In this document: in pieces, positions 1,167 through 27,252 of the stretch | How positions within the stretch are numbered: the stretch's first letter is position 1 | Layout: the number at the start of each line of letters is the position of its first letter | NCBI RefSeq assembly: GCF_018613155.1 | Contig: NZ_JAGGQU010000035.1 | Span: forward strand, 1-49,634 | DNA length: 49,634 nt | Direction: 5' to 3' | Source: Bacillus sp. ISL-55 | Lineage (GTDB): Bacteria; Bacillota; Bacilli; Bacillales; Cytobacillaceae | The notes under the pieces: generated by a model | Database searches by the model: none | Told to the model about the DNA's origin: nothing | Seen by the model: the letters and a program-made list of their open reading frames with translations, nothing else | Made by a program: the position numbers and the translations under genes

Positions 1167-1627
1167 CCCAATACCTCCGTAAAAACTCATTCCATACAGA
1201 GTTATTGTCTCTCTCCATAGATAATTTATGATTGGACTGCTTGGAAAAGCTGTCCCCATCTAATAATAACAGGGTTCCCCGCTCCTCCTCCCCCTTTTCC
1301 CCTCAATCGCTTCTCCCTCTAAGGCTCACGCCCCCTTAACCCTTAACTCTACTCTCACTTAAAGAATAATAACTTTCCTGCCTTTTTCACGCTTTTTTCC
1401 TCATTTGTGTACCGATTTTGCACTGAATTTGACATAAAAATAACAGGGATAATAGGGATAAGGGTTAAGGATGAAAGGGCTGGTTTTTCCCGCTTTCTTC
1501 CCTTTTTTGCTCCTGCATTTTCTTCTTCTTTTTCGTTGCGAAATCTCGTTGTATCTTGCTTTCTCACGCCTTTCTTCATGCTTTTTCCCATGCTTTTCTC
1601 GCCCTTTTATCCCTCGCTTTATCAGGC
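1167..1627. other. gene-free stretch, pyrimidine-rich
   Basis: There is no convincing gene on either strand. The short open frames here are low-complexity, rich in Phe and Ser on the plus strand and Lys and Arg on the minus strand, and lack ribosome binding sites. The stretch holds the upstream region of the hydrolase gene, and its base composition shifts from the G+C-richer left flank to the AT-rich accessory DNA. Confidence 0.5.
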
Positions 1628-1673
1628 AAAAAAAGACCGAAGGTCTGCTGAATCAGATCAGGAAACCTTCGGT
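1628..1673 (-). terminator. Rho-independent terminator (leftward)
   Basis: Read on the minus strand, ACCGAAGGT pairs with ACCTTCGGT around a loop of about 20 bases and is followed by seven T residues. It could end leftward transcripts of the cargo genes starting at 1808, although it sits just outside the proposed transposon end at 1681. Confidence 0.65.
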
Positions 1674-1680
1674 TTAGGAA

Positions 1681-1740
1681 TGTTATTTTTATTTAAGTAC
1701 CGTTATTTTTGTGTAAGGAACGGTAATTTTAGTTTGGGAC
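1681..1740 (+). repeat. Three 20-bp direct repeats; putative left end of Tn7-like transposon
   Basis: GTTATTTTTATTTAAG (1682), GTTATTTTTGTGTAAG (1702) and GGTAATTTTAGTTTGG (1722) recur at exactly 20-bp spacing. The first begins with TGT at 1681. Tn7-family ends begin with TGT and carry several TnsB-binding sites of about 20-22 bp. A related block, GGCAATTTTAGGTAG, occurs on the opposite strand near the tnsA-side end (16350-16364). That these are TnsB sites is inference. Confidence 0.5.
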
Positions 1741-1807
1741 ATAGTAGTTGATAAGGGTTTAGTTTTTTAAAGTCTTCAATTTCTTTACATAGATAGTAAA
1801 AATGGAA

Positions 1808-9892: not shown

Positions 9893-11731
9893 TTACAAGT
9901 CCTCTAAAATTCTATTAACAATTTCAGTCCACTTACTGGTGTCTTTTATTCCTACACCTCGCAATATCTTCCATGGTACTAAAACTTCACCTATATCTTT
10001 ATTCTGCTTGATTGTATAATAAATACGTCGTTTTTGAAATTGCTCAACCGTTTCAATCTTTTCTTGAAGATAAAATTTTGTTTTTGGCAGTTTGTCTAAT
10101 TTCTTCTCTAATAATGCACGTTGTCCTATCAGAAATCCAACTTTACTAATGGTAATCCGAACTGGCTTATTTTTTGGATTCAGAAGGCTCTCAACGACTT
10201 TTGATACTTGTTCCAACATATCTTCATCCCGCTTATTCCAATCAACTTTGACAGATGATGTTCTTTTGATTGCTTTGGGACTATTCACTTTCAACCATTC
10301 CCTATCATTTCTATAAAGCCTCATATAAAGGGCTTTATTCGCTTCCCTTAGTTGCTTGATAGACTTTTGTGGATTCCGCCTTTGCAATGATAGCCAACTT
10401 TGACGATCTTCCTTTACAGAATCCTTAGTTTGTTCAATGTTCAAGCTACCTTCTTTTTCATCATTTAGGATACGTTTAATTGTATTCGGATCTGCCCCCA
10501 TTTTTCGAGAAAGCTCTCTTAATCCAAGACCTAACTTTGAAAACTCTTGCAACTTCGCTTTCCATAACGATCCATAGGTCTTAACCCTTGTTCTTCGTAA
10601 TTTATCAGCTTCATTCTGATCAGGGCCTCGCCTCGTATAACTAAATTCACATACAGGGCATGTAAACGTTCCGATAGTTTTTTTTGTTTTTTCACATAGA
10701 GTGATAGACACGTTATCGATTATCGTAACTTTAAAGTAATCACAAATAATATTCTGACATGGGTAGTTTGGTTGACCAAACGGCTGAAGTAACTCATTGT
10801 TAAAAATCTCTTCTACTGTCATCTCTAAGGCTGACATTACTAAAAGGTGTCTTATAGGATGAAAGGACTTACGATTCTTTTGAACAATAAGCGAAAGCCA
10901 ATCTTGTTCGCCCTTTAGTGGGGAATGAAACAGTTGCAATGCTTCCTCACTATAAATAGTAAGAAAGTAATCTCTCCAATCTTTTTGTTTAACACGACCT
11001 GTATAATAAGCCAAATCCAAATCAGCTAACTTATTTCTATACTTCTGATCAAACCAATTCAACGACTGATGTTTAAATGACTGATTCAATAGTTGCAAAA
11101 TACTGTTTGCTAACTTCTTACAATGCTCTATGTATTCTGTTCTTGTTCTCTCAGCAACACTATCAAGAACACTTATCCCAATGGAACAATTCTCTAATGT
11201 AGGAATTTGAAATCGATGTTTATTTGAGCCGATTACTTTAATGTTACTGTCATGAAGAGGAGTAAAATGCTTTAAACAACAGTGTACCCCACTTAACTGA
11301 TGGCTCCTATGCCAGTACAGTTCCCCATAAGTATCTCTATCTTCCTGCAAACATTCTTTGCAATAACGGAGAAACTCATTTTGCGGTACACCACTTGCAA
11401 TCAAACCTGAACGAACATAAATCCCTTTGCCGTCATCACTACACATTTCTTGATATATCGTCTTAGCTTGGTCATTTAAAAACGCAGTATTAAACAAATA
11501 TAAAGTGTGCTGATGAATAAGCTGTTCTTCATTCATCTTTGAATATGGTGGCATATTTTTTATCAAAGAGCTAATGCCAGAAGGCAAAGAAATCGAAGCT
11601 GTTAGGCTCCGATTAGAGAAAAGATCATCAAGTGTTCCTTTGTAACTGATATTGCCACTTCTAACGAAATATCTGGAACATAACGAAAAAAGGAGTTCAT
11701 CAGGATACGGAGTGGGGAAGAACAGCATCAT
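9893..11731 (-). CDS. tniQ: TniQ/TnsD-family target-site selector
   Basis: A 612-residue TniQ/TnsD protein that selects the insertion site and recruits TnsC. It opens with FFPTPYPDELLFSLCSRYFVRSG, the family N-terminus. A zinc-finger region follows at residues 124-155 (YCKEC, then WHRSHQLSGVHCCLKH), a second possible zinc motif lies near residue 375 (FTCPVC), and there is a C-terminal helix-turn-helix (GLGLRELSRKMGADPNTIKRIL). The length is that of a full TnsD, which binds a specific attachment site, rather than the short TniQ of CRISPR-linked elements. It follows tnsC directly (TAAATG) with AAGGAGG upstream. The preferred target is not evident. Confidence 0.9.
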   Translation of the reverse strand: MMLFFPTPYPDELLFSLCSRYFVRSGNISYKGTLDDLFSNRSLTASISLPSGISSLIKNMPPYSKMNEEQLIHQHTLYLFNTAFLNDQAKTIYQEMCSDDGKGIYVRSGLIASGVPQNEFLRYCKECLQEDRDTYGELYWHRSHQLSGVHCCLKHFTPLHDSNIKVIGSNKHRFQIPTLENCSIGISVLDSVAERTRTEYIEHCKKLANSILQLLNQSFKHQSLNWFDQKYRNKLADLDLAYYTGRVKQKDWRDYFLTIYSEEALQLFHSPLKGEQDWLSLIVQKNRKSFHPIRHLLVMSALEMTVEEIFNNELLQPFGQPNYPCQNIICDYFKVTIIDNVSITLCEKTKKTIGTFTCPVCEFSYTRRGPDQNEADKLRRTRVKTYGSLWKAKLQEFSKLGLGLRELSRKMGADPNTIKRILNDEKEGSLNIEQTKDSVKEDRQSWLSLQRRNPQKSIKQLREANKALYMRLYRNDREWLKVNSPKAIKRTSSVKVDWNKRDEDMLEQVSKVVESLLNPKNKPVRITISKVGFLIGQRALLEKKLDKLPKTKFYLQEKIETVEQFQKRRIYYTIKQNKDIGEVLVPWKILRGVGIKDTSKWTEIVNRILEDL

Positions 11732-13327
11732 TTATACTACCTCCTTAATCTGCTTGATAAAACCTGATTCCTTTAAAGATGCATAAGCTGAAAGCCCATT
11801 TTCCTTTCCTTTTTTCACAATTGTTCTCAGATCATTTTCTGCATTTACCCTTGTTTCTTTTATACCTTCATTCTCTACAGCTATTTGTACCGAATATTGA
11901 TACGCACTTTTCACCAACTCCTGCAAATCGGTAAAGGTCGTTGCTCTGCATACTTCATTTATTGCTTTTTTAGCCTTTTCCTTCGACAATCCCAGTAAAT
12001 TAAGACGGAATAGAGCTTCTTCTCTAAGTTTTGTAACATCAGTTGACTTTTGTTTATTTTTCATCGCTTTAATAAAGTCGTTTTTCTCTAAGTCGATCCT
12101 TTCCCTTTCTACTGCTTCTTGAAAAGGAAAATAAATATCTTCATATTGAGCAATTTTACTCATATCGCCAGACTTTAAAGCTGTAAGCATAGGTTGAACG
12201 AGTTTTAAATGATCCTTTGCTACCTGTCTAATTAAGGATACTGAAAGAATCTCACTTGAAGAAGAGATAGCTCTTATTTGTGACAAAGAGAAGAGCTTCA
12301 AACAGATGTCAATAATCCCCTGTGATTCTTCGTACAATATATCTACAAATTCATCAGTTAGTTTCACTGGATTTCTAACCCATTGATATTCCCACATTGA
12401 TTCCAGGAACAGCCTCCAATAATCATCCTTAGCCATTCTGTCCATAATCAAGTCCCCTTGACCACTCCCTCTGCGTGCCTGCCGAAACTCACTTTGCAAA
12501 ACATTCATTGCGGAAGGAGTTCCAATTAGTACGATAGGTATTCCAATCATATTACTTAGTGTGGTAAAGAAATTAAGCATTAGCTTAGAACCAACTCCTC
12601 TTATGCTAAGATGTTGGATTTCATCGATACATAAAATTCCAGCACCGACTGAATTGATGATCTGCGTCATAATTGGCATTAATGTATTTACTGACAGTTT
12701 GTTAGATCGACCAAACTTCTCAAAATAGTTTGTTCCTAAAAGACCATCAACCGTCATAAAAAACTGGTTCACTAAACCTTTTACCGATCCATCATGGCTA
12801 CATTCAAGGCGAAGCCAAACTAATTGTGTAAACAAGAAATCTTTCCCCCGATAGCTTGAATGATTTATGATTTGTGGTAATTGGTCGAAAAGTTTCGCAA
12901 TAGCCGTACTCTTTCCAGTCCCACTCGGCCCAATTATTGTTAGCCCTCTTGGAATTGAGTGATTAAACCACCCTTGTTCTACTTGATTCTGTATATTCTC
13001 ATGCCCCTGAATTAATGATGAAGCATATGTAGGACTAAATGGATTTCTTCCAACATACCCCTGCCTGAGAAGCCTGGATAACCTGGATTCCAAATCAATG
13101 TGTAAGGGCAAACACTGAAATAGAGAAAAGAGCCTTTGAATAATATGAAATCGATATTGACTATCTAATTGACGTTCACTTTCATCAAAGTGAGGATAGT
13201 AACTTATTCTTTCAATAACCTCTTCCCTTGACAAGATTTTGGGAAGTGACTCAATTAATGGATTATTCTGATACTCTTTTACCACCTGTTCATGATAATG
13301 AGCTTGGGTAAATTGGCTACTATTCAC
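11732..13327 (-). CDS. tnsC: TnsC, AAA+ transposition regulator ATPase
   Basis: A 531-residue TnsC/TniB-type AAA+ ATPase. Walker A is GPSGTGKST at residues 133-141 and Walker B is GILCIDEIQHL near residue 230, followed by a sensor segment IPIVLIGTPSA. TnsC forms filaments on target DNA, links TniQ to the TnsAB transposase and gives target immunity. The C-terminal 130 residues are charged and helical, probably the TnsA/B contact region. The GTG start at 13327 overlaps the tnsB stop by eight bases, so the two are translationally coupled. The length matches Tn7 TnsC (about 555 aa). Confidence 0.92.
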   Translation of the reverse strand: MNSSQFTQAHYHEQVVKEYQNNPLIESLPKILSREEVIERISYYPHFDESERQLDSQYRFHIIQRLFSLFQCLPLHIDLESRLSRLLRQGYVGRNPFSPTYASSLIQGHENIQNQVEQGWFNHSIPRGLTIIGPSGTGKSTAIAKLFDQLPQIINHSSYRGKDFLFTQLVWLRLECSHDGSVKGLVNQFFMTVDGLLGTNYFEKFGRSNKLSVNTLMPIMTQIINSVGAGILCIDEIQHLSIRGVGSKLMLNFFTTLSNMIGIPIVLIGTPSAMNVLQSEFRQARRGSGQGDLIMDRMAKDDYWRLFLESMWEYQWVRNPVKLTDEFVDILYEESQGIIDICLKLFSLSQIRAISSSSEILSVSLIRQVAKDHLKLVQPMLTALKSGDMSKIAQYEDIYFPFQEAVERERIDLEKNDFIKAMKNKQKSTDVTKLREEALFRLNLLGLSKEKAKKAINEVCRATTFTDLQELVKSAYQYSVQIAVENEGIKETRVNAENDLRTIVKKGKENGLSAYASLKESGFIKQIKEVV

Positions 13328-15443
13328 GCTTATCCATACCTTTCTTCTGCATCCTTTTAAGTAATGTTAAATCATCATCGGTTGAACTACTCATTGGAAT
13401 GATTTTGGCTTTCTGTCCTTCCATTTTATTTTTAGGATTCTGGAACTCTCTTTGTTCCTGCTGTCTTATATTTTCTTGTTCAAATTTACGATGCGTCTTT
13501 ATGTCCTTTATTCTTTTATTGTTGCTTTCCTTTACTCCATCCAACTTTGCTTGTCTTTCAGCATTTTTCACAATCTCTTCTATTGCTTCTTGAAGATCAA
13601 CTTTGGCTTTCAATTCATTTTGTTTATAGCCACTTTTTTGCATCTTCTCGTATTCTTGCAAATAATTAATATCTTCCAGAGTTTTATTTTTATACCGAGA
13701 TTGATGTTCCAATAGATAACACCTTTCAAAACCATTATCGTGAATGCCCTGTAAATAGATTTGACTGAGATTTCTTGGATCATATTTGATTGCAACCTTC
13801 CAACTCTTCTTGTAACGTGCTTGTACAAACCACTGTTCTTTTAATGCCATATCTGTACCGTAATATATATTGCGAAACTTGATTCCAGACTCAGTTACGG
13901 TTGCCATTCCGTCTGGTAATGTGTACAACATCATTTTTTCTTTTAAAATTTTTCGAAGTCTTCCAGCTCTATTCTGTATCCCCCACTGCCAAAGATTAAT
14001 CGGGATTGGTTTTACTCCTGCTTTAACCATCTCTTCATCCATCACGTAATTTTCTAATACATAGTTGTTATTAAAGTATAAAATGTAATTAATGATAATT
14101 TTTTTGAAGTCAGATAAGGATAATTTTCCGCTTAAACGGTGGTCTCGGACTCCACGCTTTCCAAAGTCCTTATCAACAGCCCCAGGTAATATAGGCTTAA
14201 TAACTTCGTTGGTTAAGAGTCCAAATTGCCTTTCAATAAGCGACTTTAGGTCGCCTCTCCAACTTCCAGAATTCTCTATTTTTATATTCAATTTCTCCGT
14301 AAGGACATTAGATGCATTTGAAAGAAGCTCCGCTCTGTCTGCCACTATACAATTAGGTAAGTGAGCAGTCGGCCACTGAGATTCATCAATCTCTATATTA
14401 AACTGCGAACAAAACTCTACCTTATCCTCAACCATATTCATTAAAGCGAGTCTTGCCTGTTCGAAATTCGGCCCTTCCAATCCTATGTGAAAGCCTACGA
14501 TCATGGATGAAAATACGCACTTGCACAGATATAAGATTGGGCGACCGATAACCCACTCTCTATCGCCAAACTCACTAACCAAATACACATCCGCTACGGT
14601 TGCATCAATTTGTACTTTTTCCATAGGTGAGCGAACCTCAGAAGTAGCACTTCCCAAAACAGGTCTGTATGTAAGATCATAGTTTCGTTTACCAGTCCTT
14701 CGTATAATCTCCTTTGTTAAATCTTGTTCCTTCCTAATCCAATAGAGAAACTGGTTATATGTTGGGAGTTTTTCAGGAGAATCTTCCAGTTCCTCTCTAA
14801 AATACTCCTTTATCATCTGCTCATAGGCAAAACGAACACTAACATTTTTCTTCGTTTCATAATATTTATGGGCCGCTAACCTGAATATCCGTTTAACTTC
14901 ATCGTCAATATTGACTCCTTCACCCATTATTTGTTTCACTTTTCTTGGTCTCCCCCTCTTTTTCTCTCCGCTTTGCTTTTCTTGCCCTTTACATCCTTTG
15001 TTTCTAAAATCAGGGAGCAACGAAGAAGGATACGTGCCTCTTTTCCAGTACCTTTTCAAATATTTCACAACAGTTTTTCTATTTATCCCCATATTAATAG
15101 AAATTGTGTTGATAACCTCATTCCTTTTCGTCGGTTTAAATAAGTTATCCACACCTACTTCTAATAACCGAGAGACAACTGTCCATGCTTTTTCTTGTGA
15201 TAATCTTGCCTTTTCACTAATATCGTTTTCAGAAAGTAACAAAGCCCAAGGATCATGATGAATAATCTGAGCTGTCCCATTATTTATGCTTTCCTCAACC
15301 TCTTTAATCTCCTTTGCTATTGGAAAGGAATTATCAAACACATTTATGAGAAAACAAGTTTGATAGCTGTCATCAATAAAGATTACTCTTTCAATACTTT
15401 TAGGATCATTTTCACATTGAATTAACATGTTGATAGAAAGCAT
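13320..15443 (-). CDS. tnsB: TnsB, DDE transposase
   Basis: A 707-residue Mu/Tn7-type DDE transposase that cuts the 3' ends and performs strand transfer. Visible catalytic positions are the Asp in KVQIDATVADVYL near residue 285, the Asp in NCIVADRAEL and the Glu in DLKSLIERQFG. An N-terminal helix-turn-helix region (GINRKTVVKYLKRYW) fits end binding, followed by a basic segment (GEKKRGRPRKVK). A frame extension reaches 15467, but the ATG at 15443 has GAGGAGAGG about six bases upstream. This start overlaps the end of tnsA by 32 bases. The charged C-terminal tail fits a TnsC-contact region. Confidence 0.92.
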   Translation of the reverse strand: MLSINMLIQCENDPKSIERVIFIDDSYQTCFLINVFDNSFPIAKEIKEVEESINNGTAQIIHHDPWALLLSENDISEKARLSQEKAWTVVSRLLEVGVDNLFKPTKRNEVINTISINMGINRKTVVKYLKRYWKRGTYPSSLLPDFRNKGCKGQEKQSGEKKRGRPRKVKQIMGEGVNIDDEVKRIFRLAAHKYYETKKNVSVRFAYEQMIKEYFREELEDSPEKLPTYNQFLYWIRKEQDLTKEIIRRTGKRNYDLTYRPVLGSATSEVRSPMEKVQIDATVADVYLVSEFGDREWVIGRPILYLCKCVFSSMIVGFHIGLEGPNFEQARLALMNMVEDKVEFCSQFNIEIDESQWPTAHLPNCIVADRAELLSNASNVLTEKLNIKIENSGSWRGDLKSLIERQFGLLTNEVIKPILPGAVDKDFGKRGVRDHRLSGKLSLSDFKKIIINYILYFNNNYVLENYVMDEEMVKAGVKPIPINLWQWGIQNRAGRLRKILKEKMMLYTLPDGMATVTESGIKFRNIYYGTDMALKEQWFVQARYKKSWKVAIKYDPRNLSQIYLQGIHDNGFERCYLLEHQSRYKNKTLEDINYLQEYEKMQKSGYKQNELKAKVDLQEAIEEIVKNAERQAKLDGVKESNNKRIKDIKTHRKFEQENIRQQEQREFQNPKNKMEGQKAKIIPMSSSTDDDLTLLKRMQKKGMDKRE

Positions 15444-16287
15444 CCATATCCTCTCCTCTATCCACAAAAGATATTTCTGAACAAGACTGTTCTAAACTAA
15501 TCGGCTTGTTCATGTTTATTTTCAAAATCTTTCTTGCTAACAAATGCTTGTATATGAGCAGTCCAGTCCCATTTTCAGTATTAAGTTGATTATCAAATCG
15601 GTTTACAACCTCTTTTACGGGACTATCTTGGAAATTTGCTATTAGCTTTAGCAAGTAATCTTTGTACATTAACTGTTCTTCATCTTTGATTCCATATTCA
15701 TCCAGATGGTAAGCAGAGTGGATAAATTCAATGTTTTTTGCAGGAACAATCGGGATTTCTTTATTTGTAATGATGCCGTAGTCTATCCCTCTAAATTTCC
15801 AATACCTATTCATTACCTCAAAACGTTCGATAACTTGGCTATTCTCTAATTGTCGATAGTCTTTAACTGATCTTGCATAATAGCTAATATCACCATCAGC
15901 ATTTTGCAAAGTGATCAGGAAGGTTGTCACCAATACCATTGGTTCTCCTGATTTCTGATTAAACAATCGTTTGATTAGCTGTTCATCCAAGGTTGGCAAT
16001 ATTTCATTCATTCCTTCTATCAAGGGATAATGCTCCCTAACTTCCAAAATTCGGAAGCCCCCAAATTCTCCATACTCTAATAGGTAGAAGTAGCGAGTCT
16101 CCGAGTCAGAGAGAAAATGATGTACTCGATTCGTCTTCCATCCCTTGATCCGACTAACTCGCCCTTTACTTGGTACTCGAATAACATCCAGAAAAGGCTT
16201 GTAATCTTTTCCTTCTCCCTGACCGTATCCCTGTTCAAGCAATGATGCTAATTTCTTTGCCGTTTGCTCATGTTTCAATACAGGCAT
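15412..16287 (-). CDS. tnsA: TnsA-family endonuclease with an altered active site
   Basis: A 291-residue TnsA protein, which normally cuts the 5' strands so that Tn7 moves by cut-and-paste. The family blocks are present: SETRYFYLLEY (candidate catalytic Glu63), VREHYPLIEG, and ARSVKDYRQL (candidate Lys142). In the middle block, where the family has TTDF with a catalytic Asp, this protein reads VTTFLIT, with Thr122 at the Asp position. A TTG lies 18 bases upstream, but the ATG at 16287 has GAAGGGAG eight bases before it. A promoter-like TTGACG (16331-16336 on the minus strand) with a TATGTG 17 bases on lies upstream. Confidence 0.88.
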   Translation of the reverse strand: MPVLKHEQTAKKLASLLEQGYGQGEGKDYKPFLDVIRVPSKGRVSRIKGWKTNRVHHFLSDSETRYFYLLEYGEFGGFRILEVREHYPLIEGMNEILPTLDEQLIKRLFNQKSGEPMVLVTTFLITLQNADGDISYYARSVKDYRQLENSQVIERFEVMNRYWKFRGIDYGIITNKEIPIVPAKNIEFIHSAYHLDEYGIKDEEQLMYKDYLLKLIANFQDSPVKEVVNRFDNQLNTENGTGLLIYKHLLARKILKINMNKPISLEQSCSEISFVDRGEDMDAFYQHVNSM

Positions 16288-16339
16288 TTTCCACACTCCC
16301 TTCAAAGCACATATATAATATGAAGAAACTCGTCAAAAT

Positions 16340-16586: not shown

Positions 16587-17174
16587 CTAAAAAGCCTTAC
16601 TTTCTACTCCTTCATTATCCTGTTCAATTTGCTGAACCTTTCGATAAAAAGATGTACGAGATATATCTAATTTTTTATAGGTATAAACCGCTGTTTGTTT
16701 TCCTTCTTTCCAACGCTTGTATTCTCGCATAAAATTTTGATCAATTTGAATAGGCGGCCTTCCAAAAGCAATTCCTTTTTCTTTAGCTATGGTTATCCCC
16801 TCCATTTGTCGTTGTTTAATACTTTCCCGTTCAAGTTCATATAAGGCTCCAAAAATGGTGCAGATGAACTTCCCTTGGGGAGTTGAGGTGTCTATGCTTT
16901 CTTTTAAACTTACAACTTCAACCCCTCGATCCGTTAAATCATTAACAAGTTCCAGAAAGTCTTTCGTATTACGAGCAAGCCTTGAAATAGACTCGATAAC
17001 AAGAGTATCTCCTTCTCGTATAAAATTCATCATCTCTTGCAACTTCGGTCTATTTTTATCCTTACCACTCAATTTTTCAATGAAGCACTTTTCTACACCT
17101 TGTTCTTCAAGTGCTTTAATCTGTCTCTCTGGATTTTGTGACAAAGAAGAAACTCGACAATATCCAATTTTTAT
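16587..17174 (-). CDS. Serine recombinase (resolvase/invertase family), AUA start
   Basis: A 195-residue small serine recombinase. From codon 1 it reads (M)KIGYCRVSSLSQNPERQI, where Ser9 is the predicted nucleophile. VIESISRLARNTKDF (catalytic Arg residues), the conserved TPQGKF/ELERE helix E region and a C-terminal DNA-binding helix-turn-helix (YTYKKLDISRTSFYRK) follow. No ATG, GTG or TTG precedes the catalytic Ser: the frame opens just after a TAA at 17193-17195, and the first usual start is a TTG at 17144, which would delete it. GGGGGGAG lies six bases before an ATA at 17174, so AUA is the likely initiator. Its role is probably plasmid multimer or cointegrate resolution. Confidence 0.82.
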   Translation of the reverse strand: MKIGYCRVSSLSQNPERQIKALEEQGVEKCFIEKLSGKDKNRPKLQEMMNFIREGDTLVIESISRLARNTKDFLELVNDLTDRGVEVVSLKESIDTSTPQGKFICTIFGALYELERESIKQRQMEGITIAKEKGIAFGRPPIQIDQNFMREYKRWKEGKQTAVYTYKKLDISRTSFYRKVQQIEQDNEGVESKAF

Positions 17175-17315: not shown

Positions 17316-17456
17316 ATTTTGTGACATAAGAAATAAGATAAATGAATGTTGTCTCCAAGTTGGGATTTGCTATGCCACATAATATTATTAAATATATTTT
17401 CTGGATACGTTTTTTAACCTTTTATCTTTATTATTGTTAAGTTGTAATAAAAAACA

Positions 17457-17478: not shown

Positions 17479-17496
17479 CTTCGCCTACAATATCAA

Positions 17497-17796: not shown

Positions 17797-17828
17797 ATCT
17801 ATTCATCCCCTTCTTACTTTGGATACCT

Positions 17829-18194: not shown

Positions 18195-18195
18195 G

Positions 18196-18636
18196 TTATA
18201 CCTCCTCCTTAATAGTTTCTTTACTAAACCCTTTGCTTAATTCAGTGTATAAGAACTCAACTTTCTCTTGGATGAATGCAATTACTATTAGAAACATTTT
18301 GCAGTAGGTTAAATTCACGTTACGTTCACTACTAATTTCTATCATTTTTAGAGTAACCTCAATCATGTCATTCAAGTGGAGAACAGCATTACATAGGTCG
18401 TACCAATATTGACTATCCATTTCCTCAATTGAAAACTCATTGTCAAAATATTGATGCTCTCCTAATTGTTTGAGAGAACTTATCAAGCTATCCTGCTTTT
18501 CATTCTTCAGATATAACGTAGTATTTTCATACAATTCAATCGTGTCCATAATTTGAAGACCTATTAGACGCTCAACTACTTCTTCCTGCTTAAACTTTTC
18601 CAGTACACTGAATTGAGTAACTGTTTCTCTGGTCAT
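18196..18636 (-). CDS. hypothetical helical protein (146 aa)
   Basis: A 146-residue, mostly alpha-helical protein, first gene of the leftward cluster. GAGGTG lies about eight bases before the ATG (MTRETVTQFSVLEKF). A hydrophobic stretch late in the protein (YCKMFLIVIAFIQEKVEFLY) could be a buried helix or a weak membrane segment. No family is recognised. Its promoter must lie in the 135-bp divergent region shared with the HTH gene at 18772, so the regulator may control it. Confidence 0.68.
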   Translation of the reverse strand: MTRETVTQFSVLEKFKQEEVVERLIGLQIMDTIELYENTTLYLKNEKQDSLISSLKQLGEHQYFDNEFSIEEMDSQYWYDLCNAVLHLNDMIEVTLKMIEISSERNVNLTYCKMFLIVIAFIQEKVEFLYTELSKGFSKETIKEEV

Positions 18637-18660
18637 TACTAATCACCTCATGAATTATTT

Positions 18661-18702
18661 ACAAAGGATTCTATTGTTGTAATTGGTGTTCCTTTGTATA
18701 AT
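18661..18702 (+). promoter_or_regulatory. Promoter and operator-like dyad of the HTH gene
   Basis: TTGTTG (18674-18679) and TATAAT (18697-18702) are separated by 17 bases, a good sigma-A-type promoter reading right. A perfect eight-base dyad, ACAAAGGA (18661-18668) and TCCTTTGT (18690-18697), brackets the -35 element and touches the -10, the expected place for a repressor site. The encoded HTH protein may bind it and control both divergent units. Confidence 0.6.
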
Positions 18703-18771
18703 TACATTGTATATAGACAACGAATAAAAAAAGTTGCCTACGAAGTCACTTTTATTGAAGGAGATTACACC

Positions 18772-19290
18772 ATGAGTTACACTACTTTTGATTCAAATGA
18801 ACTCGAACAATTCATCCAAACGAAGAAGATAATTCATTTAATAAGTAAGCTAAACATTCAAGATGATTTTCTCTACATCGAGGATAAAGCTACATTCCAT
18901 AACGCTTTTTCTGGATTAGATGAAGCAATAAGAAATGTTAGGGGTAAACGTAAGATTGGGGATTACATACATGATTTAATGGAAGAAAGCCGAAAAAAAT
19001 TGGATGACCTTCATTTAAGAGCTGGAATATCAAAGGAGTATTGGCATAAGGCAACAAATGGTAAGATACATCCTTCGAAAAGAAAGTTATTATGCTTAGC
19101 AGTCATTTTGAAACTATCTCTTGAAGATACCGAAAAACTGTTACAAATTGCAGGGTACAGTCTTGCAACAGATCTTACTAACTTCGAGGCTATTTTAGGA
19201 TTCGCTATAAAAAAACAGATTTATTCATTTTATGAAATTGACGAACAATTAAGCAAATATGGTGAAAAAACTATATTCTCAATAGAATAG
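18772..19290 (+). CDS. Helix-turn-helix transcriptional regulator (172 aa)
   Basis: A 172-residue protein with a C-terminal XRE/Cro-like helix-turn-helix near residues 85-140 (LDDLHLRAGISKEYWHKATN, then PSKRKLLCLAVILKLSLEDTEKLLQIAGYS). This matches HTH regulators in which the DNA-binding helices are followed by a short helical tail. The frame opens earlier, at 18694, but GAAGGAGA lies eight bases before the ATG at 18772, so that start is used. It is transcribed away from the three-gene cluster at 17497-18636 across a region with a dyad over its promoter, so autoregulation is likely. The N-terminal 60 residues have no known domain. Confidence 0.78.
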   Translation: MSYTTFDSNELEQFIQTKKIIHLISKLNIQDDFLYIEDKATFHNAFSGLDEAIRNVRGKRKIGDYIHDLMEESRKKLDDLHLRAGISKEYWHKATNGKIHPSKRKLLCLAVILKLSLEDTEKLLQIAGYSLATDLTNFEAILGFAIKKQIYSFYEIDEQLSKYGEKTIFSIE

Positions 19291-19433
19291 CAGTTTAGGT
19301 TTTGAAAGAGTAATAATAGGGGTATCATATATTGTCTTGCCCGTATCTCCTTTATTAGTAATTGAATATTCTACAATCAAAGTTCATTTCTTCAATATCT
19401 TTATTTACTTTACTTCATAAATTATCTTTGGGA

Positions 19434-20291
19434 TCAAAGAGCGAATAAGGGGATTGTAAAAAAGGTCTTGTTATTTACATGTTCATTTTGGAGTTTTTGT
19501 TTTAACTTAATGGGGAATCCCTTGTCTTCTATATGATACTTTCTAATGAAATTAGCTTTTATCAACCAGTTAATCGATTTATCAAGAGTCTTGTAATCTA
19601 CCTTCAATATCCTCATTAATTCTTCAATAGAGCATGAGAACAATGCTTCGTCAGCGATACTGCTTGATCTTGTCGATAAATAATAAAGACCGACTTGATT
19701 TAGCATTTGAAAAACTCGCATATGAGATAGACCTTGTTCATCAATGATTGGGTTATCCTTTCTTTGATCTGACAAATGTTTATGAATACAAAGAAAGTTC
19801 TTCTTGTATTTGTCCAACTGCTTCTTTTCCCACGCATATTCTTCATATTCTGCTTGTAGCAGAGATGCTAATTCTCTTCGAGCAAACAAGAATGCTCTTC
19901 GGGAATCTACTTCAACATCACCTAACACAACTAAGAAATCAATAATTGTGAATGCAACAGCATTTTGTGCTTTAGCAGTTCTCGTAAAGTAACGGTAGTT
20001 ACCTACTACGTCTCTCTCAATCCATGCTATATTGTTATTCTTTAATAAACATGCAAATTCTTCACCATCATTAATCTTAGTTAAGTCGATAAAAATTCTG
20101 TTGAAGACGTTAATACTTAAAACATACTCAACAAACTGTTTATTGGTCTTAATATTATTCGGAACCTCTATCTTGTTAGATACCTTTTTTACCTCCTTTG
20201 TTTGAATGTGTCCCTTCGCTTTCCTCAGTTTTATTTTTTCGTTTACATTTGCAACGTTATACGGCCGCTTACTCGAACTTAATAGTGGCAT
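19434..20291 (-). CDS. Replication-associated protein with degenerate CHC2-like region and winged helix
   Basis: A 285-residue paralogue of the larger protein encoded at 23415-24671. Shared blocks include TNKQFVEYV, IFIDLTKINDGEEF, AWIERD...GNYRYF, IIDFLVV and AEYEEYAW. The order (Cys or Ala core, a YRYF strand, then an IIDFL-type helix) resembles the CHC2 zinc-finger domain of DnaG-type plasmid primases, but the Cys/His ligands are mostly gone. A C-terminal winged helix (SIEELMRILKVDYKTLDKSINWLIKANFIRKY) could bind origin DNA. The ATG overlaps the stop of the upstream gene (TAATG), with AAAGGAGG just before. It is the last gene of the 23.1-19.4 kb operon. The function is inferred. Confidence 0.65.
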   Translation of the reverse strand: MPLLSSSKRPYNVANVNEKIKLRKAKGHIQTKEVKKVSNKIEVPNNIKTNKQFVEYVLSINVFNRIFIDLTKINDGEEFACLLKNNNIAWIERDVVGNYRYFTRTAKAQNAVAFTIIDFLVVLGDVEVDSRRAFLFARRELASLLQAEYEEYAWEKKQLDKYKKNFLCIHKHLSDQRKDNPIIDEQGLSHMRVFQMLNQVGLYYLSTRSSSIADEALFSCSIEELMRILKVDYKTLDKSINWLIKANFIRKYHIEDKGFPIKLKQKLQNEHVNNKTFFTIPLFAL

Positions 20292-21076
20292 TATATTACC
20301 TCCTTTAATTGATAGTTGATTCGTTTCATTTCTTTTATTATTGCTGTTCGAATTATTTCCGCTTCTTCATCCAAACTACGATAATCCGATTTTGAAATAT
20401 AATTTTCCATAAATGAAATTTCTAAAAAGCAACAAATCTCAGAAATACTGCCGAGGGCGTAATTTAATTCTTGAAATCTACCATTAGAAATGACACCTTT
20501 TGATTTAACCAAATTATTATATACACTACTCACTGCTCTATTAAGCTGATCAACTATGTTGTCAACCTCAAAATCAGGAAGTGTCCTAACCATATTTCCA
20601 ATAGTCCTTTGAAATATCTTTACTCTTTCAATCGTAGTTTCCAAGGGCGAAAAACCTACATCCTTGATTGAATAATGTATATGTGTCTCAACATTAGTTG
20701 ACTGAAAGTGTTCTATCCTTTTCATTAACGCACTAATTATTCTGGCTATTTCCTTTGCATTATCTTGCAATCTATTGTTATTTTCTTTTGTTACGTAGCC
20801 TTGCATAGATGATAAATCTAATAATGCCTGATATTTTGCTAACTTACACAATGCGATATCGAAATGCTCGTATTCTCTCCCGTAGTAAAAGTTGCCATTT
20901 CCTTCTGCCAAATTCTCCAGGACTGCACAACTTGCTTTTCTCATACCATTCTTTATATAACTCTCAGAAGATGGAATGGTTTTTATTATTGTATAAACAT
21001 CCCTTCGGAAAAGGAGTGCCTTTTTATAGGCAATTAATTCCCGAAAGTTCCCTACATATTCCTTTTTTGTTGCCAT
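20291..21076 (-). CDS. Tandem four-helix-bundle (IVP/bAvd-like) protein
   Basis: A 261-residue protein made of two four-helix-bundle units. The first (residues 10-125) has the family pattern: FRELIAYKKALLFRRDVY, then MRKASCAVLENLAEGNG, EYEHFDIALCKLAKYQALLDL and a GYV turn. The second (about 130-255) repeats it more loosely: IERVKIFQRTIGNMV, LNRAVSSVYNNLVKSKG, RFQELNYALGSISEICCFLE. Single units occur as 23S rRNA intervening-sequence proteins and as Avd of diversity-generating retroelements, where a pentamer binds RNA. No reverse transcriptase is present here. GAAAGGAAG precedes the ATG. The next gene overlaps its stop by one base. Confidence 0.72.
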   Translation of the reverse strand: MATKKEYVGNFRELIAYKKALLFRRDVYTIIKTIPSSESYIKNGMRKASCAVLENLAEGNGNFYYGREYEHFDIALCKLAKYQALLDLSSMQGYVTKENNNRLQDNAKEIARIISALMKRIEHFQSTNVETHIHYSIKDVGFSPLETTIERVKIFQRTIGNMVRTLPDFEVDNIVDQLNRAVSSVYNNLVKSKGVISNGRFQELNYALGSISEICCFLEISFMENYISKSDYRSLDEEAEIIRTAIIKEMKRINYQLKEVI

Positions 21077-21149
21077 AATAACTTCCTTTCTCTATTATTT
21101 GTATCAATGTTTAGTTGAGATTTAGTTAAAATCAGAGGATATAATAAAT

Positions 21150-21184
21150 GGTGATTAAGAGGTATTATTTGAGGATATCACCAA
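21150..21184. terminator. Inverted repeat between two four-helix genes
   Basis: TGGTGAT (21150-21156) and ATCACCA (21178-21184) form a seven-base stem with a 21-base loop. On the minus strand it is followed by TTTATTATAT. It lies in the 153-bp gap between the gene ending at 21230 and the gene starting at 21076, the only large gap in the operon, and may be an attenuator or weak terminator. Confidence 0.4.
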
Positions 21185-21229
21185 TCAGGTACGATATGGC
21201 TATTATACGGGGTTTATTATATTTTGAAT

Positions 21230-22006
21230 CTAATTTCCTTGCTCTACCCTGTTCGAGCTTTTCAATCGCCCAAAATAATAGTTCAATAGTTTTAATACCT
21301 GAACCCGACACACTTCAATATTGTTCAAATCATCTTTATGCTCATGCGATAGAACTTGGAATTGATCCAACATCACTTTCAGACTCTTCAAATTTTGGTT
21401 GACTTCACTGAACTTTTTATTCCGTATCTTCATGTTTAACTGTCCGATGCCAGAAGCAATTCGCAATGGGGTATCTATCGCCAATCGATATGCTTTTTCT
21501 ACCTGTTCATCATTAATTTCAAAACCCACACTATCTACTAACCAGTAAATTGACTGCATTAGGTCGATTGAGCGATTATACAAATGAAATCTGTGAAAGT
21601 CTTCTACTTGCCACTTATCTACAATGATATTAGTAGGATATTGTTTAAGCCTCTTTATCAGACTAAACGACATTTTCAGAAGTTCAATTGCATCTGCATC
21701 AGCCTGGTGAAAATTCTCAGAAGGTAAATAACCACGAACATGAGCCATTTGAAACAGTGATCTACACTCATTAATGCATTTCATCGCAATGTTGAGATAA
21801 TTAAATTCGTTAGAATAGTACATTGTTACACGACTTTGAGCGATATTTTCTACTATTGCAACGGCTGAACTTCGAAGCCTTTTGCGGATGATGTCGTCAT
21901 CGAACTTCTCCGATATGACATGTAACTCCTTAGCAAAACTAAGGGATTTTTCATAAACCTTTGACTTCTTTGGATTACTTCTAAAAGGCTTCCTTTGTGC
22001 TTGCAT
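21230..22006 (-). CDS. Tandem four-helix-bundle (IVP/bAvd-like) protein
   Basis: A 258-residue protein with the same two-unit plan as its neighbour at 20291-21076, though the sequences have diverged widely. First unit: VYEKSLSFAKELHVISE, LRSSAVAIVENIAQS, EFNYLNIAMKCINECRSLFQMA, then RGYL. Second unit: RFHLYNRSIDLMQSIYWLV, LAIDTPLRIASGIGQLN and KFSEVNQNLKSLKVMLDQF. The N-terminus is basic (QRKPFRSNPKKSK). AAGGAGAA lies about nine bases before the ATG, and the gap to the upstream gene is 16 bases. Two unlike tandem copies side by side suggest a hetero-oligomer, which is inference. Confidence 0.72.
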   Translation of the reverse strand: MQAQRKPFRSNPKKSKVYEKSLSFAKELHVISEKFDDDIIRKRLRSSAVAIVENIAQSRVTMYYSNEFNYLNIAMKCINECRSLFQMAHVRGYLPSENFHQADADAIELLKMSFSLIKRLKQYPTNIIVDKWQVEDFHRFHLYNRSIDLMQSIYWLVDSVGFEINDEQVEKAYRLAIDTPLRIASGIGQLNMKIRNKKFSEVNQNLKSLKVMLDQFQVLSHEHKDDLNNIEVCRVQVLKLLNYYFGRLKSSNRVEQGN

Positions 22007-22022
22007 TGACTTCTATTCTCCT

Positions 22023-22784
22023 TTATCCTACCTGGCAGTATGCACTTGCAGGGCGTAATGTGAAATGATTCTTTGTTTGGTTGTTTAAAGCAGTTCTTAC
22101 ATCAAGTTGAAATTCATAAGCAACATCTTTTAAATTTGATAGGGAAAACAGATTGGGGTGTTTCGAGTGTAGATATAAGGAAGATTGTAGATATGCAGGT
22201 AAGAATGGATACTTATTAATGAAAATTTCAATGGAAATTTTCGAGGTAATTAGAACAGTAACCTTATAATTGAACATAATCCTTAATAATTCAGGTACAA
22301 GGTTTGATTTGTAGAAATAGTCTGTATGGCTATCCCATATAACAAATTTAATATCATGATTTTGCTCCAATGATTGTGTTATATGTTGATCGCAAACATG
22401 TGGTTGATGTGAGTGCGGTGTTATTATCTTTGTGTTAGAAATAAAGGATTTTACTTGGGTGTTTAATAAGGGGAATAGTAAAGATTGACTTTCTTGTTTT
22501 ATCTCTGATACGGAAAAATAATTATTATGTGGATTTTGCTTGAATAACATTCGACTCAAAAATAAATCTTTCAATTTGTATATTTGTTGCTCTTCTTGAA
22601 CAAACAAGGCTTGTGATCCTTTGCCGATAAATTGCTCAGTCAGTTGAGTAACAAAAGCATCTTTCAAGTATGAATCATGATATTCCAACAAATAAATTCC
22701 TTTACTATTAATTGCTTTGTAAATTAAATCGAAGTCTTGATAATTCGTTTGTTCTAATTGACTATTGTGGTTTTGGGTGTACAA
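22023..22784 (-). CDS. RecA/DnaB-like fold protein lacking Walker A
   Basis: A protein of about 253 residues that follows the replicative-helicase (DnaB C-terminal) pattern: GIYLLEYHDSYLKDAFV where Walker A should be, a strand-helix QALFVQEEQQIYKLKDLFLSRML, a Walker B-like strand IKFVIWDSHTDYF, and KVTVLITSKIS resembling the sensor strand. The GKT/S motif is absent, so ATP hydrolysis is doubtful. An ATG at 22802 overlaps the upstream stop (TAATG), but AAGGAGGG lies just after it and seven bases before a TTG at 22784, so that TTG is preferred. The longer form would add six residues. It may be a helicase-derived scaffold. Confidence 0.6.
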   Translation of the reverse strand: MYTQNHNSQLEQTNYQDFDLIYKAINSKGIYLLEYHDSYLKDAFVTQLTEQFIGKGSQALFVQEEQQIYKLKDLFLSRMLFKQNPHNNYFSVSEIKQESQSLLFPLLNTQVKSFISNTKIITPHSHQPHVCDQHITQSLEQNHDIKFVIWDSHTDYFYKSNLVPELLRIMFNYKVTVLITSKISIEIFINKYPFLPAYLQSSLYLHSKHPNLFSLSNLKDVAYEFQLDVRTALNNQTKNHFTLRPASAYCQVG

Positions 22785-22801
22785 TTCCAATCCCTCCTTC
22801 A

Positions 22802-23134
22802 TTACTGATAATCATTTATCATTTTCATTAATTTCATGGAGTATTCATCAATCTCTTTTCCCACATACCCTGAATCTACATTTTTACTATTAAAATCCAG
22901 AAGCAAATCATTTAGTTCAACCTTGGCTTGTTTCAATTCCTCGAAGGAGTCTGTTATTTTTGTCATTTTTAGAGCATTACCAACTCTTGTATGAATTGAT
23001 ATCGCTTTTTTTCGTAGATTATCTAATTCTAAACGACTAAATGACCTTTGGTTTTTATTTAACCAATTGAAGATAGCAAACCCTACTTCCTCATTGCATT
23101 CAAATAGTTGTAATTTCCTTACTGTACTATTCAC
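22802..23134 (-). CDS. Single four-helix-bundle (IVP/bAvd-like) protein (110 aa)
   Basis: A 110-residue all-helical protein, first gene of the operon. The GTG start at 23134 has AGGTGG seven bases upstream. The segment LDNLRKKAISIHTRVGNALKM, then FEELKQAKVELNDLLLDF and SGYVGKEIDEY, follows the IVP/bAvd pattern of a paired helix, an ELK-type helix and a GY turn before the last helix. It is roughly half the size of the two tandem-unit proteins downstream. It could be the single-domain subunit of a shared complex. The assignment is by pattern only. Confidence 0.6.
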   Translation of the reverse strand: MNSTVRKLQLFECNEEVGFAIFNWLNKNQRSFSRLELDNLRKKAISIHTRVGNALKMTKITDSFEELKQAKVELNDLLLDFNSKNVDSGYVGKEIDEYSMKLMKMINDYQ

Positions 23135-23414
23135 TCATGTTCCACCTTTCTATAAGATTGTCGCTACATTATCCGACTACATTCCATCATTCATCAATGC
23201 CATATACCTATTCTATTAGAATTGCAAGTATTATTCTACGCATTACTTGTCGTACCTTGTTCTATAGTTATTGGGGTTGTTTTATAGCAACTATCTACTT
23301 GTAAGGAACTAAATGCAGTAATTAAAATATGGTGTTGTGGGTGGTTGAGGAAAGATAAAGAAGAGTTTCTGGAAATCGGATGATAAACTGTATTCAGCTG
23401 TTACCCTTGACTTA
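23135..23414. other. 280-bp gap upstream of the four-helix operon
   Basis: No gene is seen here. The gap must hold the promoter of the operon starting at 23134 and the 3' region of the replication gene that ends at 23415. I did not find a clear terminator stem or a confident -35/-10 pair. TTGCAAG and TACTTGTAAGG echo each other loosely. Confidence 0.4.
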
Positions 23415-24671
23415 TCAAAAAGGGATTTCTTCATCTAACATAACTTGACCATCTGTATCAACGATTTCTTTTTGTAAATTGCTTCTGTCCACTCTTTTTG
23501 ATACTTCTTTCATTATTTCCTTGTGTTCAAAAAAAATAGTTTTAGCAATATCCTTTCCAAGTGCATTTGCAATGTTCTTTTCATTGATTTTTTTTATATT
23601 AGTCACTTTAGCCATAAGGAGTTTTTTTGCATTTTCTTCAACTTTAGTAAGGAGTTCATCGGTATATAAGGGGAAGGCGTAGAATGTTATGAGCCTACAA
23701 TTAATCTCGCCTTCTTTTTTATTTATTGTTTTGCTATTAAGTTTCTGCAATTCTAACTTTTCTATGGTAGAAGCTCTAATATTCATTCCGATATTCAATA
23801 ATTCTAAAGGGAAATCTTTATCATGTGGTGGGATTTTGTGGATTAATCCGATTGAGGAGAATAAATTGATGGCTTTAGAGATTGTGCTTGCATCTGTACC
23901 AATTAGTTGATTTAGATGACGTGTTGATATATATACAGCATGCATTTTTTTGTACGAGTGTTTCATTAGTAAGGGGTGAATTGCTTCATTCTTCATCATT
24001 TCATACAATACATTCATATACGATTTAGTTAGCTTATATAAAGCAGGAAAATGATTCTTCCATTCTTTCCCTGAGTTCTGGATGGTGGCTTGATTTTTCT
24101 TCTGCCGAGCTTTCTGTTCCACTGCCCAAGCGTATTCTTCATACTCACATCCTAATAATTCTAAGAGTCCCACTCTGACTAATTCGATACTTGTTAAGTC
24201 TGGATTCGCCACGCTAACCAGATCTAATACACTAAAACTCCTACATAGCCCACCTTTCTCCATGGTAAAATAGCGATAAATTCCTTCTTGTTGATCCTTG
24301 TCAATCCAAGCAAAATGGTGCTTAAAAAGGATGCATGGAAAGTATTCCTTCTCTTTACACTCACTTAGATTGATAAAAACATCACTGAATAGGTTCGCTC
24401 TGGTTACATAAGATATGAACTGCTTATGGGATTTTACTGTTGGTGGTAGCTTATGGTTAGTCCTTCGAGTTATTAGTGAAGACATTCTCTTTTTCCCTTG
24501 AAGATATATACCTATTTCCGACAATTCCCCACTTGCAAATAGTGTTAAATAATCTTGATCATCTTCTTCATAACCTTTCTGTAAAGACTGAATGTGGTTC
24601 TTCTCTGTGTTGTAATTGACATTATTATAATTTATTTTTGGAGATTCGAAATAACAATCCCATACACTCAT
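23415..24671 (-). CDS. Putative plasmid replication initiator (degenerate CHC2-like plus winged helix)
   Basis: A 418-residue protein, the larger paralogue of the protein at 19434-20291. The central region (residues 85-175) has HKQFISYV, DVFINLSECKEKEYFPCILFKH, FAWIDKD...YRYF, SVLDLVSVANP and CEYEEYAWA, a layout like a CHC2 primase zinc finger that has lost most ligands. A winged-helix segment follows (YISTRHLNQLIGTDASTISKAINLFSSIGLIHK), then a charged helical tail. GAGGAGGG precedes the ATG, but the start lies in a hairpin. The gene stands beside a large gene-free, repeat-bearing region and partition genes, where a replication initiator is expected. That function is inferred. Confidence 0.62.
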   Translation of the reverse strand: MSVWDCYFESPKINYNNVNYNTEKNHIQSLQKGYEEDDQDYLTLFASGELSEIGIYLQGKKRMSSLITRRTNHKLPPTVKSHKQFISYVTRANLFSDVFINLSECKEKEYFPCILFKHHFAWIDKDQQEGIYRYFTMEKGGLCRSFSVLDLVSVANPDLTSIELVRVGLLELLGCEYEEYAWAVEQKARQKKNQATIQNSGKEWKNHFPALYKLTKSYMNVLYEMMKNEAIHPLLMKHSYKKMHAVYISTRHLNQLIGTDASTISKAINLFSSIGLIHKIPPHDKDFPLELLNIGMNIRASTIEKLELQKLNSKTINKKEGEINCRLITFYAFPLYTDELLTKVEENAKKLLMAKVTNIKKINEKNIANALGKDIAKTIFFEHKEIMKEVSKRVDRSNLQKEIVDTDGQVMLDEEIPF

Positions 24672-24708
24672 ACTGAAACCCTCCTCTTAATTAGATGGTT
24701 TTCAGTAT
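24670..24708 (-). promoter_or_regulatory. mRNA hairpin over the start codon of the replication gene
   Basis: On the minus strand ATACTGAAAACC pairs with GGTTTCAGTAT with one bulged A and a 16-base loop. The SD sequence (GAGGAG) is in the loop and the AU of the start codon ends the right arm. Such a fold should limit translation of the initiator, which would fit copy-number control. Confidence 0.55.
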
Positions 24709-26000: not shown

Positions 26001-26990
26001 ATGTTATTTGAAGAAGTAAATGTAGCAGTAGACTCAGGAAAAGGATTCAGCAAATTTTTAGTTAGAGATGCTGTTACAAAAGAATATAAAAAATCAGTAT
26101 TTCCTACTAAGATCCAGAAGGTAAACAATATCGGCTTTGACCTATCAACCAATTCTTATCAGGTAGAATATGATGGTGAGATCTATCTGATTGGAGACAT
26201 GCTAACGAACTTAGTGAACACTGATTTAACAAAGAAAACAAAGGAACACTTATTATGTATTTATCTTTCAGTGGTTAATGCCATAAAGTTGTCTAACAGT
26301 AAAAAGGCAGGAATTTATAGGGTTAATCTTTCGCTAAATACCCCACTCACCATCTTCAAAAATAAGAAATTGAAGGATGAATATGAACAATTCATCAGAC
26401 AAAATGGAGGAACCATTCATTTCACTCTAAATGGGGAGCATTTCCTATTTAAAATACAAAACCTTTTTCTATTACAGGAGGGAATCGGTTCTCTCTTTCT
26501 TCGACCTGATTATAAAAATAAAAATGTTGTTCAAATTGATATCGGAACCCTCAATGTCACCGTAAACTCTTTCTTATCATTAATTCCTCAGCTCGATTCC
26601 AATTTTTCGAATAGTTATGGAACAAACTCGTTATTCTCAACATTACGTGAACGACTATCGATGGATTATGGTGTGACTGTCCATTACAAAGATCTGGAAC
26701 AAATAATTAAAGATAGGGTTTTAATAGTAGAAGGAGAGAGAATGCTTGATAGTTCTGTAATTATTGAAGAAATTATGGAGAACCATGCTAAACAAATCAT
26801 GGCAAGTGTTAAAGCACAAGTTTCCTTGAACAATACTGAGATTTCCTTTGTAGGGGGCGGTTCTATCCTTCTATACGAACAGCTAAAGAAACTCGTACCA
26901 CAAGCCACTTTCGAACCTGATCCTCAATTCTGCTCCTTAAATAGCTTCTACCGCATAATGGAGGCTAAACTCCATGCCCAAAGACTATAA
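26001..26990 (+). CDS. ParM/Alp-type actin-like plasmid partition protein
   Basis: A 329-residue actin-fold ATPase. The phosphate-1 motif is VAVDSGKGFSKFLV near residues 8-21, the phosphate-2 motif is VQIDIGTLNVTV near residue 175, and the adenosine motif is ISFVGGGSILLY near residue 287. The layout and length match bacterial plasmid-segregating actins (ParM, AlfA, Alp7A). Filaments of such proteins push plasmid copies apart. AAAGGAGG precedes the ATG at a normal distance. The downstream gene overlaps it by 17 bases and encodes a small ParR-like protein, the usual partner. It is one of the few rightward genes here and faces the defence operon across a terminator. Confidence 0.85.
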   Translation: MLFEEVNVAVDSGKGFSKFLVRDAVTKEYKKSVFPTKIQKVNNIGFDLSTNSYQVEYDGEIYLIGDMLTNLVNTDLTKKTKEHLLCIYLSVVNAIKLSNSKKAGIYRVNLSLNTPLTIFKNKKLKDEYEQFIRQNGGTIHFTLNGEHFLFKIQNLFLLQEGIGSLFLRPDYKNKNVVQIDIGTLNVTVNSFLSLIPQLDSNFSNSYGTNSLFSTLRERLSMDYGVTVHYKDLEQIIKDRVLIVEGERMLDSSVIIEEIMENHAKQIMASVKAQVSLNNTEISFVGGGSILLYEQLKKLVPQATFEPDPQFCSLNSFYRIMEAKLHAQRL

Positions 26991-27252
26991 AAGTATTACA
27001 ATCAGTTTCAAGCCCGAAGCAATCCACTTGTATGAGTTTACAAGGAAACAAAGCAATAAAAGTGCATATATATTAAAACTCATTCAAAAGGACATGGAAG
27101 GAGAAGACGATGCATCCTTAAAACAGACGATAAAAGCAATCATCTTGGAAATCCTTAACGACAAGGATATTACTCTTAATGAATCAAAAAAGGTTGCTAA
27201 CGAAGAGACTCTAACTGATTATGACATTGGTATTATTAATGAATACTTCTAA
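26974..27252 (+). CDS. ParR-like DNA-binding adaptor (92 aa)
   Basis: A 92-residue protein starting inside the end of the parM-like gene, with GGAGG nine bases upstream. The N-terminal half reads as a ribbon-helix-helix: SITISFKPEAIHLYEFTRKQSNKSAYILKLI, a strand followed by two helices. The acidic C-terminal half (EETLTDYDIGIINEYF) resembles the filament-contact tail of ParR adaptors. In type II partition systems this protein binds the centromere and caps actin filaments. Assignment rests on size, fold pattern and position after the actin gene. Confidence 0.75.
   Translation: MPKDYKSITISFKPEAIHLYEFTRKQSNKSAYILKLIQKDMEGEDDASLKQTIKAIILEILNDKDITLNESKKVANEETLTDYDIGIINEYF

Follow-up and report, generated by a model that had tools for sequence, protein, structure and literature searches.

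A Tn7-like element of Bacillus sp. ISL-55 with a plasmid-like gene cluster and a TnsA lacking the catalytic aspartate

Tn7 uses TnsABC and, in its glmS pathway, TnsD. Other Tn7-like elements (Tn5053, type V-K CRISPR-associated transposons, CASTs) lack TnsA; a review states that such elements give cointegrates, which are resolved by a recombinase, and that Tn5053 has a resolvase (PMC11406308). Further described systems are the intervening sequence proteins (IVPs) of 23S rRNA and the related bAvd proteins (PF05635, TIGR02436, PF22296), the replicative helicases DnaB, Twinkle and T7 gp4, and ParM-ParR plasmid partition. Here we describe a locus that resembles each of these in part: five genes in a 49,634-nt stretch of Bacillus sp. 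ISL-55 (NZ_JAGGQU010000035.1, hereafter the window), which spans an entire contig of a 4.5-Mb draft genome. The initial annotation had pointed out this gene cluster as unusual, rightly in our view. We favour, with moderate confidence, the reading that this cluster forms the replication slot of a plasmid-like element integrating by Tn7-type machinery.

As in Tn7, homologues of TnsABCD are present, insertion occurs near glmS (at the site that we take to be attTn7), relatives show a 5-base duplication and TnsB keeps its DDE residues. Unlike in Tn7, TnsA lacks the catalytic Asp, long direct repeats flank most of the examined elements of this kind, a replication/partition module is present, and a recombinase lies beside tnsA. 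Cointegrates are expected here as in TnsA-less elements, but TnsA is retained with a changed active site, the backbone is plasmid-like and the stable integrated state appears to be the cointegrate itself. The four-helix proteins belong by profile to the IVP/bAvd family, yet here two paralogous types are paired or fused and stand beside replication-type genes. One protein shares its fold and a weak sequence kinship with the C-terminal domain of DnaB, Twinkle and T7 gp4; however, the Walker A motif is absent in it and in five relatives, and intact in a fusion protein of relative G215 (G, L and C numbers are our handles for genomes, loci and contigs). A ParM-type actin gene with a small downstream gene is reminiscent of ParM-ParR plasmids, but is found here on a chromosomally integrated Tn7-like element. 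In the open-licence literature we recognised no account in which IVP or ParM is a constant component of Tn7-like elements, nor one of a natural Asp-less TnsA with terminal direct repeats; the main text of a large survey of Tn7-like cargo does not contain the words ParM, helix bundle or segregation (PMC8649781).

The five genes and a paralogue of the last of them are:

22802..23134, minus strand: P0001, IVP of the second type ('b') with a single four-helix bundle (b-type profile, 45.9 bits)
22023..22802, minus strand: P0002, RecA/DnaB-fold protein without Walker A
21230..22006, minus strand: P0003, tandem IVP, a+b (PF05635, 9.7e-16; halves scored separately)
20291..21076, minus strand: P0004, tandem IVP, a+a (PF05635, 5e-30, two stretches)
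19434..20291, minus strand: P0005, winged-helix (wH) family protein with a CHC2-like stretch lacking most zinc ligands (family alignments; weak hhalign match to CHC2)
23415..24671, minus strand: P0006, longer paralogue of P0005 (phmmer, 2e-28)

TnsA active site, direct repeats and target site

Pfam scans of the window revealed all four components of a Tn7-like set, together with a serine resolvase, a ParM-type actin and defence cargo. The features concerned with transposition are:

15412..16305, minus strand: TnsA, catalytic Asp replaced by Thr (PF08721/PF08722; family profile aligned to 1f1z/1t0f)
13320..15467, minus strand: TnsB, DDE residues kept (PF09299; alignment to Tn7 TnsB, 7pik)
11732..13327, minus strand: TnsC (PF05621/PF13401)
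9893..11731, minus strand: TnsD/TniQ target selector (PF15978, 5.4e-98; PF06527)
16587..17144, minus strand: serine resolvase (PF00239, 1.4e-36)
1251..1742, no strand assigned: left terminal unit (TGTCC...GGGACA), then TAGTAG; 80% identical to the unit of G038

The last 21 bases of the window contig are the first 21 bases of contig C13, whose gene order matches relative G038 and runs to glmS. Judged by this overlap and gene order, the window element apparently reaches glmS on C13. The initial annotation had suggested a new plasmid replication, copy-control or partition system. The link to replication and partition stands; a plain plasmid was rejected because the module is enclosed by tns genes, a terminal unit and the glmS of the next contig. 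Instead, the module sits in a Tn7-like element that is integrated near glmS.

TnsA residues were read from a family profile aligned to Tn7 TnsA (1f1z, 1t0f); for the roles and numbers of the Tn7 TnsA and TnsB active-site residues we assume the usual assignments. The window TnsA does not have the intact active site of cut-and-paste Tn7, while all three acidic residues of TnsB are kept. We compared 80 TnsA loci, those that rank best among 143 relatives. An IVP gene lies in the flank of 21 loci, and the catalytic Asp is absent in all 21; it is kept in 47 of the 59 other loci and absent in 12 (Fisher, 3.5e-11, uncorrected for descent). These 12 comprise four rows nested among the IVP groups (L143, L147, L157, L164) as well as L106-L111, L127 and L133. 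On a tree of 81 TnsA proteins the IVP loci form two groups, with 6 changes of the IVP label against a shuffled mean of 19.5 (none of 500 shuffles as low). Among the nested rows, L147, L157 and L164 have merely 1.9 to 5.4 kb of upstream-side sequence, and L143 has ParM and SF2 (superfamily 2) genes, with IVP not detected. In the clostridial Asp-less rows L109 and L111, profiles detected neither IVP nor ParM within 10 kb, where open reading frames (ORFs) were read by eye only.

Loss of TnsA catalysis predicts cointegrates. In a CAST with TnsA D90A, the whole donor backbone was integrated between duplicated mini-transposons (PMC8188705). Self-comparison of fetched islands revealed long direct repeats around 11 of 14 Asp-less elements (two in G007, and those of G064, G039, G203, G165, G496, G184, G038, G101 and G062). 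Repeat lengths are 343-2197 bases and identities 98.8-100%; of the G038 repeat, two pieces of 127 bases are visible. None of five Asp-bearing elements had such repeats (G007 at 4201641, G048, G020, G148, G074), each viewed over 60 kb, a span beyond which repeats would be missed; Fisher p for the two groups is 0.005. Asp-bearing elements did show short local repeats of 100-201 bases within 1 kb (G148, G074) and an 83% repeat of 114 bases, 10 kb apart (G007). Six genomes had been chosen before the Asp state was known: four proved to have Asp (G048, G020, G148, G074) and two not (G062, G108). The count leaves out the second Asp-less TnsA of G165 (248403) and the Asp-bearing one of G203 (23533), whose far sides lay outside the fetched stretches, and elements represented by short stretches, e.g. 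G115, G041 and G185.

The 49.5-kb island of G038 is bounded by two direct copies of a ~480-base unit; the second copy is split over the contig end and start, with the contig read as circular and the middle of the copy not seen. The unit starts with TGTCC and ends with GAGACA; three ATAATAACGTTCC-like repeats are located near its left end (motif scan), and reversed variants were recognised by eye near its right end. CTTTT is present on both outer sides, and the right copy adjoins the glmS stop codon. G203 has two 475-base units, identical over all 475 bases, with ACATT outside; the glmS gene beside it, one of two in the genome, matches at 596 of 607 positions. The G165 unit is as in G203 and occurs twice, with TCAGC outside. 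Altogether, an outer 5-base target duplication was found in five of six readable cases: G038, G203, G165, G007a and G064 (in G064 provided that the duplication is taken to include the first base of the aligned repeat), but not G007b. Of 22 genomes searched, 11 have IVP and glmS genes on one contig, and in nine of these the two are 28-72 kb apart (the G038 distance being counted across contig ends); outside this range are G335 and G554, the latter without TnsA.

Tandem arrays of terminal units occur in G039 (C4:4524604-4527734) and G496 (C1:395294-396814), as though units had recombined or transposed there again and again. Near glmS of G007, three Tn7-like elements form an array (C16:4180500-4297600): one has the TnsA Asp and no long repeats, and two are Asp-less with 2.0-2.2-kb repeats.

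The slot plan and the proteins of the replication slot

Two further genes of the window belong to the plan described below:

26001..26990, plus strand: ParM-type actin, divergent (Pfam ALP_N, 5.1e-16), as expected of a ParMRC partition system
26974..27252, plus strand: small gene after ParM, probable ParR by position and by clustering with post-ParM small genes of relatives (no significant Pfam match)

In a family sample of 193 genomes, PF05635 was found in 12 and TnsA (PF08721) in 58; in 11 of these 12 genomes IVP and TnsA are no more than 10 kb apart, the exception being G114, with its IVP gene on a 3.4-kb contig. A class sample of 398 genomes yielded 21 with PF05635 (20 over the cut-off), 13 of them within 10 kb of TnsA.

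Maps of 35 elements were built with iterated profiles. ParM is on the strand opposite tns in 18 (one a 128-amino-acid fragment; many other maps end too early to judge), a replication-type gene (wH, D5/SF3, SF2 or RecA-type, SF3 denoting superfamily 3) is present in 25, and a recombinase lies upstream of TnsA in all 35 (serine 11, tyrosine 24). The recurring order is ParM, a replication-type gene of varying kind, IVP, site-specific recombinase and TnsABCD. This slot plan is what is conserved. Conservation of the exact five-gene order, put forward initially as a check, was not borne out: P0002 proper is present in 2 of the 35 maps, therefore the five genes are not widely conserved as a unit. Counting those two, RecA-type relatives were found in seven maps; wH relatives were found in ten. 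In the one-contig genome G554 a ParM-SF2-IVP-IVP cluster (L225) occurs with no TnsA match; thus the module can exist apart from tns.

Other claims of the initial annotation, made from sequence alone, fared better. The proposed IVP four-helix bundles were confirmed for P0003 and P0004 (58.4 and 104.3 bits against a PF05635 cut-off of 33.8). P0001 had no Pfam IVP match and is assigned by the b-type profile; phmmer also matches it to the IVP-b of L104 (1.5e-8). P0002 does have the RecA-type DnaB_C fold and, as had been claimed, no Walker A: EYHDSYLKDAF occupies the place of the motif GxxxxGK[ST]. No reverse transcriptase was found among 40 window ORFs scanned with Pfam, in agreement with the earlier statement; the neighbour typical of bAvd in diversity-generating retroelements is thus absent. 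For P0005 the lack of ligands holds (only the first Cys of the CHC2 motif is widely kept), while its CHC2 identity is unproven. The description 'primase-helicase stripped of catalysis' is supported for P0002 by an intact CHC2-TOPRIM-DnaB_C primase-helicase occupying the replication slot of G215 (L208:10159-12291). Taken as a whole, the initial interpretation is partly supported.

Searches of PHROGs with the five proteins and P0006 gave nothing at E 0.01, PDB sequence searches with queries A2, A4 and P0004 gave nothing significant, and query A2 found no relative in viral contigs. A plasmid search with the single-domain IVP of L120 returned 20 records, 15 of them cyanobacterial, with mixed neighbours in the four inspected; the tandem IVP of L174 and P0004 returned none. 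Type I-D CRISPR loci on two cyanobacterial plasmids have an IVP gene flanked by cas6 and cas4 (L299, L300), and on a 49.7-kb Geminocystis plasmid an IVP gene lies between AAA ATPase and ParB genes (L297).

Proposed cycle and alternative explanations

The mutant-like structure of the insertion product, the loss of the TnsA active site, the recombinase and the partition and replication backbone lead us to read these elements as circles that integrate whole. Besides TnsABCD and a site-specific recombinase, the circle would carry ParM/ParR, a replication-type module that includes IVP bundles, and a single short terminal unit with both transposon ends. TnsD would pick the site beside glmS, where the elements are seen. 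TnsB would join the 3′ ends, and TnsA, lacking its catalytic residue, would be unable to free the 5′ ends; because of this loss the whole element would be inserted. Replication through the unit would give a cointegrate, with the circle between two direct unit copies and the 5-base duplication outside, which is the structure observed in relatives. The recombinase, or homologous recombination between unit copies, could release the circle again, and ParM with the replication slot would maintain it in the lineage. Within the slot, the wH proteins may be initiator-type DNA binders. P0002 may be a DnaB-like partner that does not hydrolyse, serving as cap, loader or regulator, and the IVP pairs may be accessory proteins that bind nucleic acids. 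The residues, repeats, target duplications, site and gene plan were seen directly; the existence and replication of the circle and the role of each of the five proteins are predicted.

Several observations weigh against this reading. Three Asp-less elements have no repeats: G215, which ends with its contig, G108, which may extend past the fetched stretch, and the window's own (G000). The last has different units at its two ends (end-like repeats at both ends of the left unit were judged by eye) and no target duplication, two features that make it a probable hybrid of two elements. Short inverted repeats often form the inner flanks of units: CTACTA/TAGTAG in G038, CTTCTA/TAGAAG in G203 and G165 and GTAACTA/TAGTTAC in G007a (not in G007b). 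The pattern, noted also for the left unit of the window (1251-1742), is kept though unit sequences differ between elements; a direct repeat would be expected had the unit transposed into a circle, and the model does not explain the inversion. G007a and G062 are Asp-less with repeats but have no IVP or ParM by profiles (G062 has a RecA-type match), which indicates that repeats follow the TnsA state and not the module. IVP lies away from TnsA in 8 of the 21 class genomes (G258, G263, G274, G317, G322, G365, G403, G554). The Fisher values overstate independence because Asp loss and IVP are both distributed by clade. A dead-DnaB profile from four relatives finds the G101 homologue of P0002 (E 7e-5) and misses P0002 itself. 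Finally, no free circle was found: window positions 15000-30000 had no megablast match in 72,556 plasmid records, and P0002 and P0004 had no protein match in plasmid records, a collection that may omit near relatives.

Alternatively, the module may serve transposition itself, the DnaB-like, primase-like, SF2 or SF3 proteins and IVP bringing the replisome to a branched intermediate uncut by TnsA. The module marks clades with Asp-less TnsA, several unrelated kinds of replication-type gene fill one slot, and for TnsA-less elements a host system starting replication at the intermediate is described in the review cited above (PMC11406308). We consider this explanation unlikely: transposition has no evident need of ParM, a protein of segregation type, the Asp-less G007a and G062 show repeats without IVP, and the G554 cluster occurs where no TnsA was found.

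It is more doubtful still that the direct repeats are two mini-elements or long gene-converted ends of a composite Tn7-like transposon moving as one, with no cointegrate scars. Such a composite would account for the outer ends, which are one left and one right end and enclose the whole within a single target duplication, like a simple insertion, and the unit arrays of G039 and G496 would fit it. However, repeats are identical or nearly so within an element, while between elements units range from alike (G165, G203) through 80% identical (G000, G038) to no match (G184), and TnsA catalytic loss predicts cointegrates.

That the five genes are defence or other cargo riding along, with bundles like bAvd or CRISPR-linked bundles, we regard as improbable. 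In its favour, the window carries sets that we presume to be of defence type (Qat-like and DUF499/DUF3780/DUF1156/helicase), IVP lies between cas6 and cas4 on the two cyanobacterial plasmids, and PADLOC gave two weak matches (an effector for P0001, 0.0019, and a winged helix for P0005, 0.006), but these were all that it gave for the five genes and P0006, and IVP is near-constant in two TnsA clades with one position kept, unlike cargo.

Returning to circles that integrate whole, the broader proposal, for and against which we are evenly divided, is a new class of integrative element: self-replicating and self-partitioning circles that would integrate at attTn7 through natural loss of the TnsA nuclease, with direct repeats like long terminal repeats and interchangeable replication modules (wH with dead DnaB, SF3, SF2 or primase-helicase) travelling with IVP bundles, often paired. 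If so, IVP proteins would gain a consistent home outside rRNA and reverse-transcriptase loci, and a testable setting for their function. In replicative Tn7-type transposition, cointegrates are usually regarded as a by-product or a hazard; here cointegration would be the regular way of integrating for a family found across many Bacilli. Such elements would link transposons with plasmids and integrative elements, explain why a catalytically changed TnsA is retained, and provide natural systems that would insert large circles at a safe chromosomal site.

Other genes of the window

Positions 4969-9734 hold genes in the order KAP ATPase, unknown, QueC-like and TatD, which we take to be a Qat defence system. 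DUF499, DUF3780, DUF1156 and PLD-SNF2 helicase genes follow at 27307-36631, presumably a defence-type combination; two of them are 74% and 92% identical in G101. IS21-type istA/istB genes at the contig end (47240-49569) probably caused the assembly break there.

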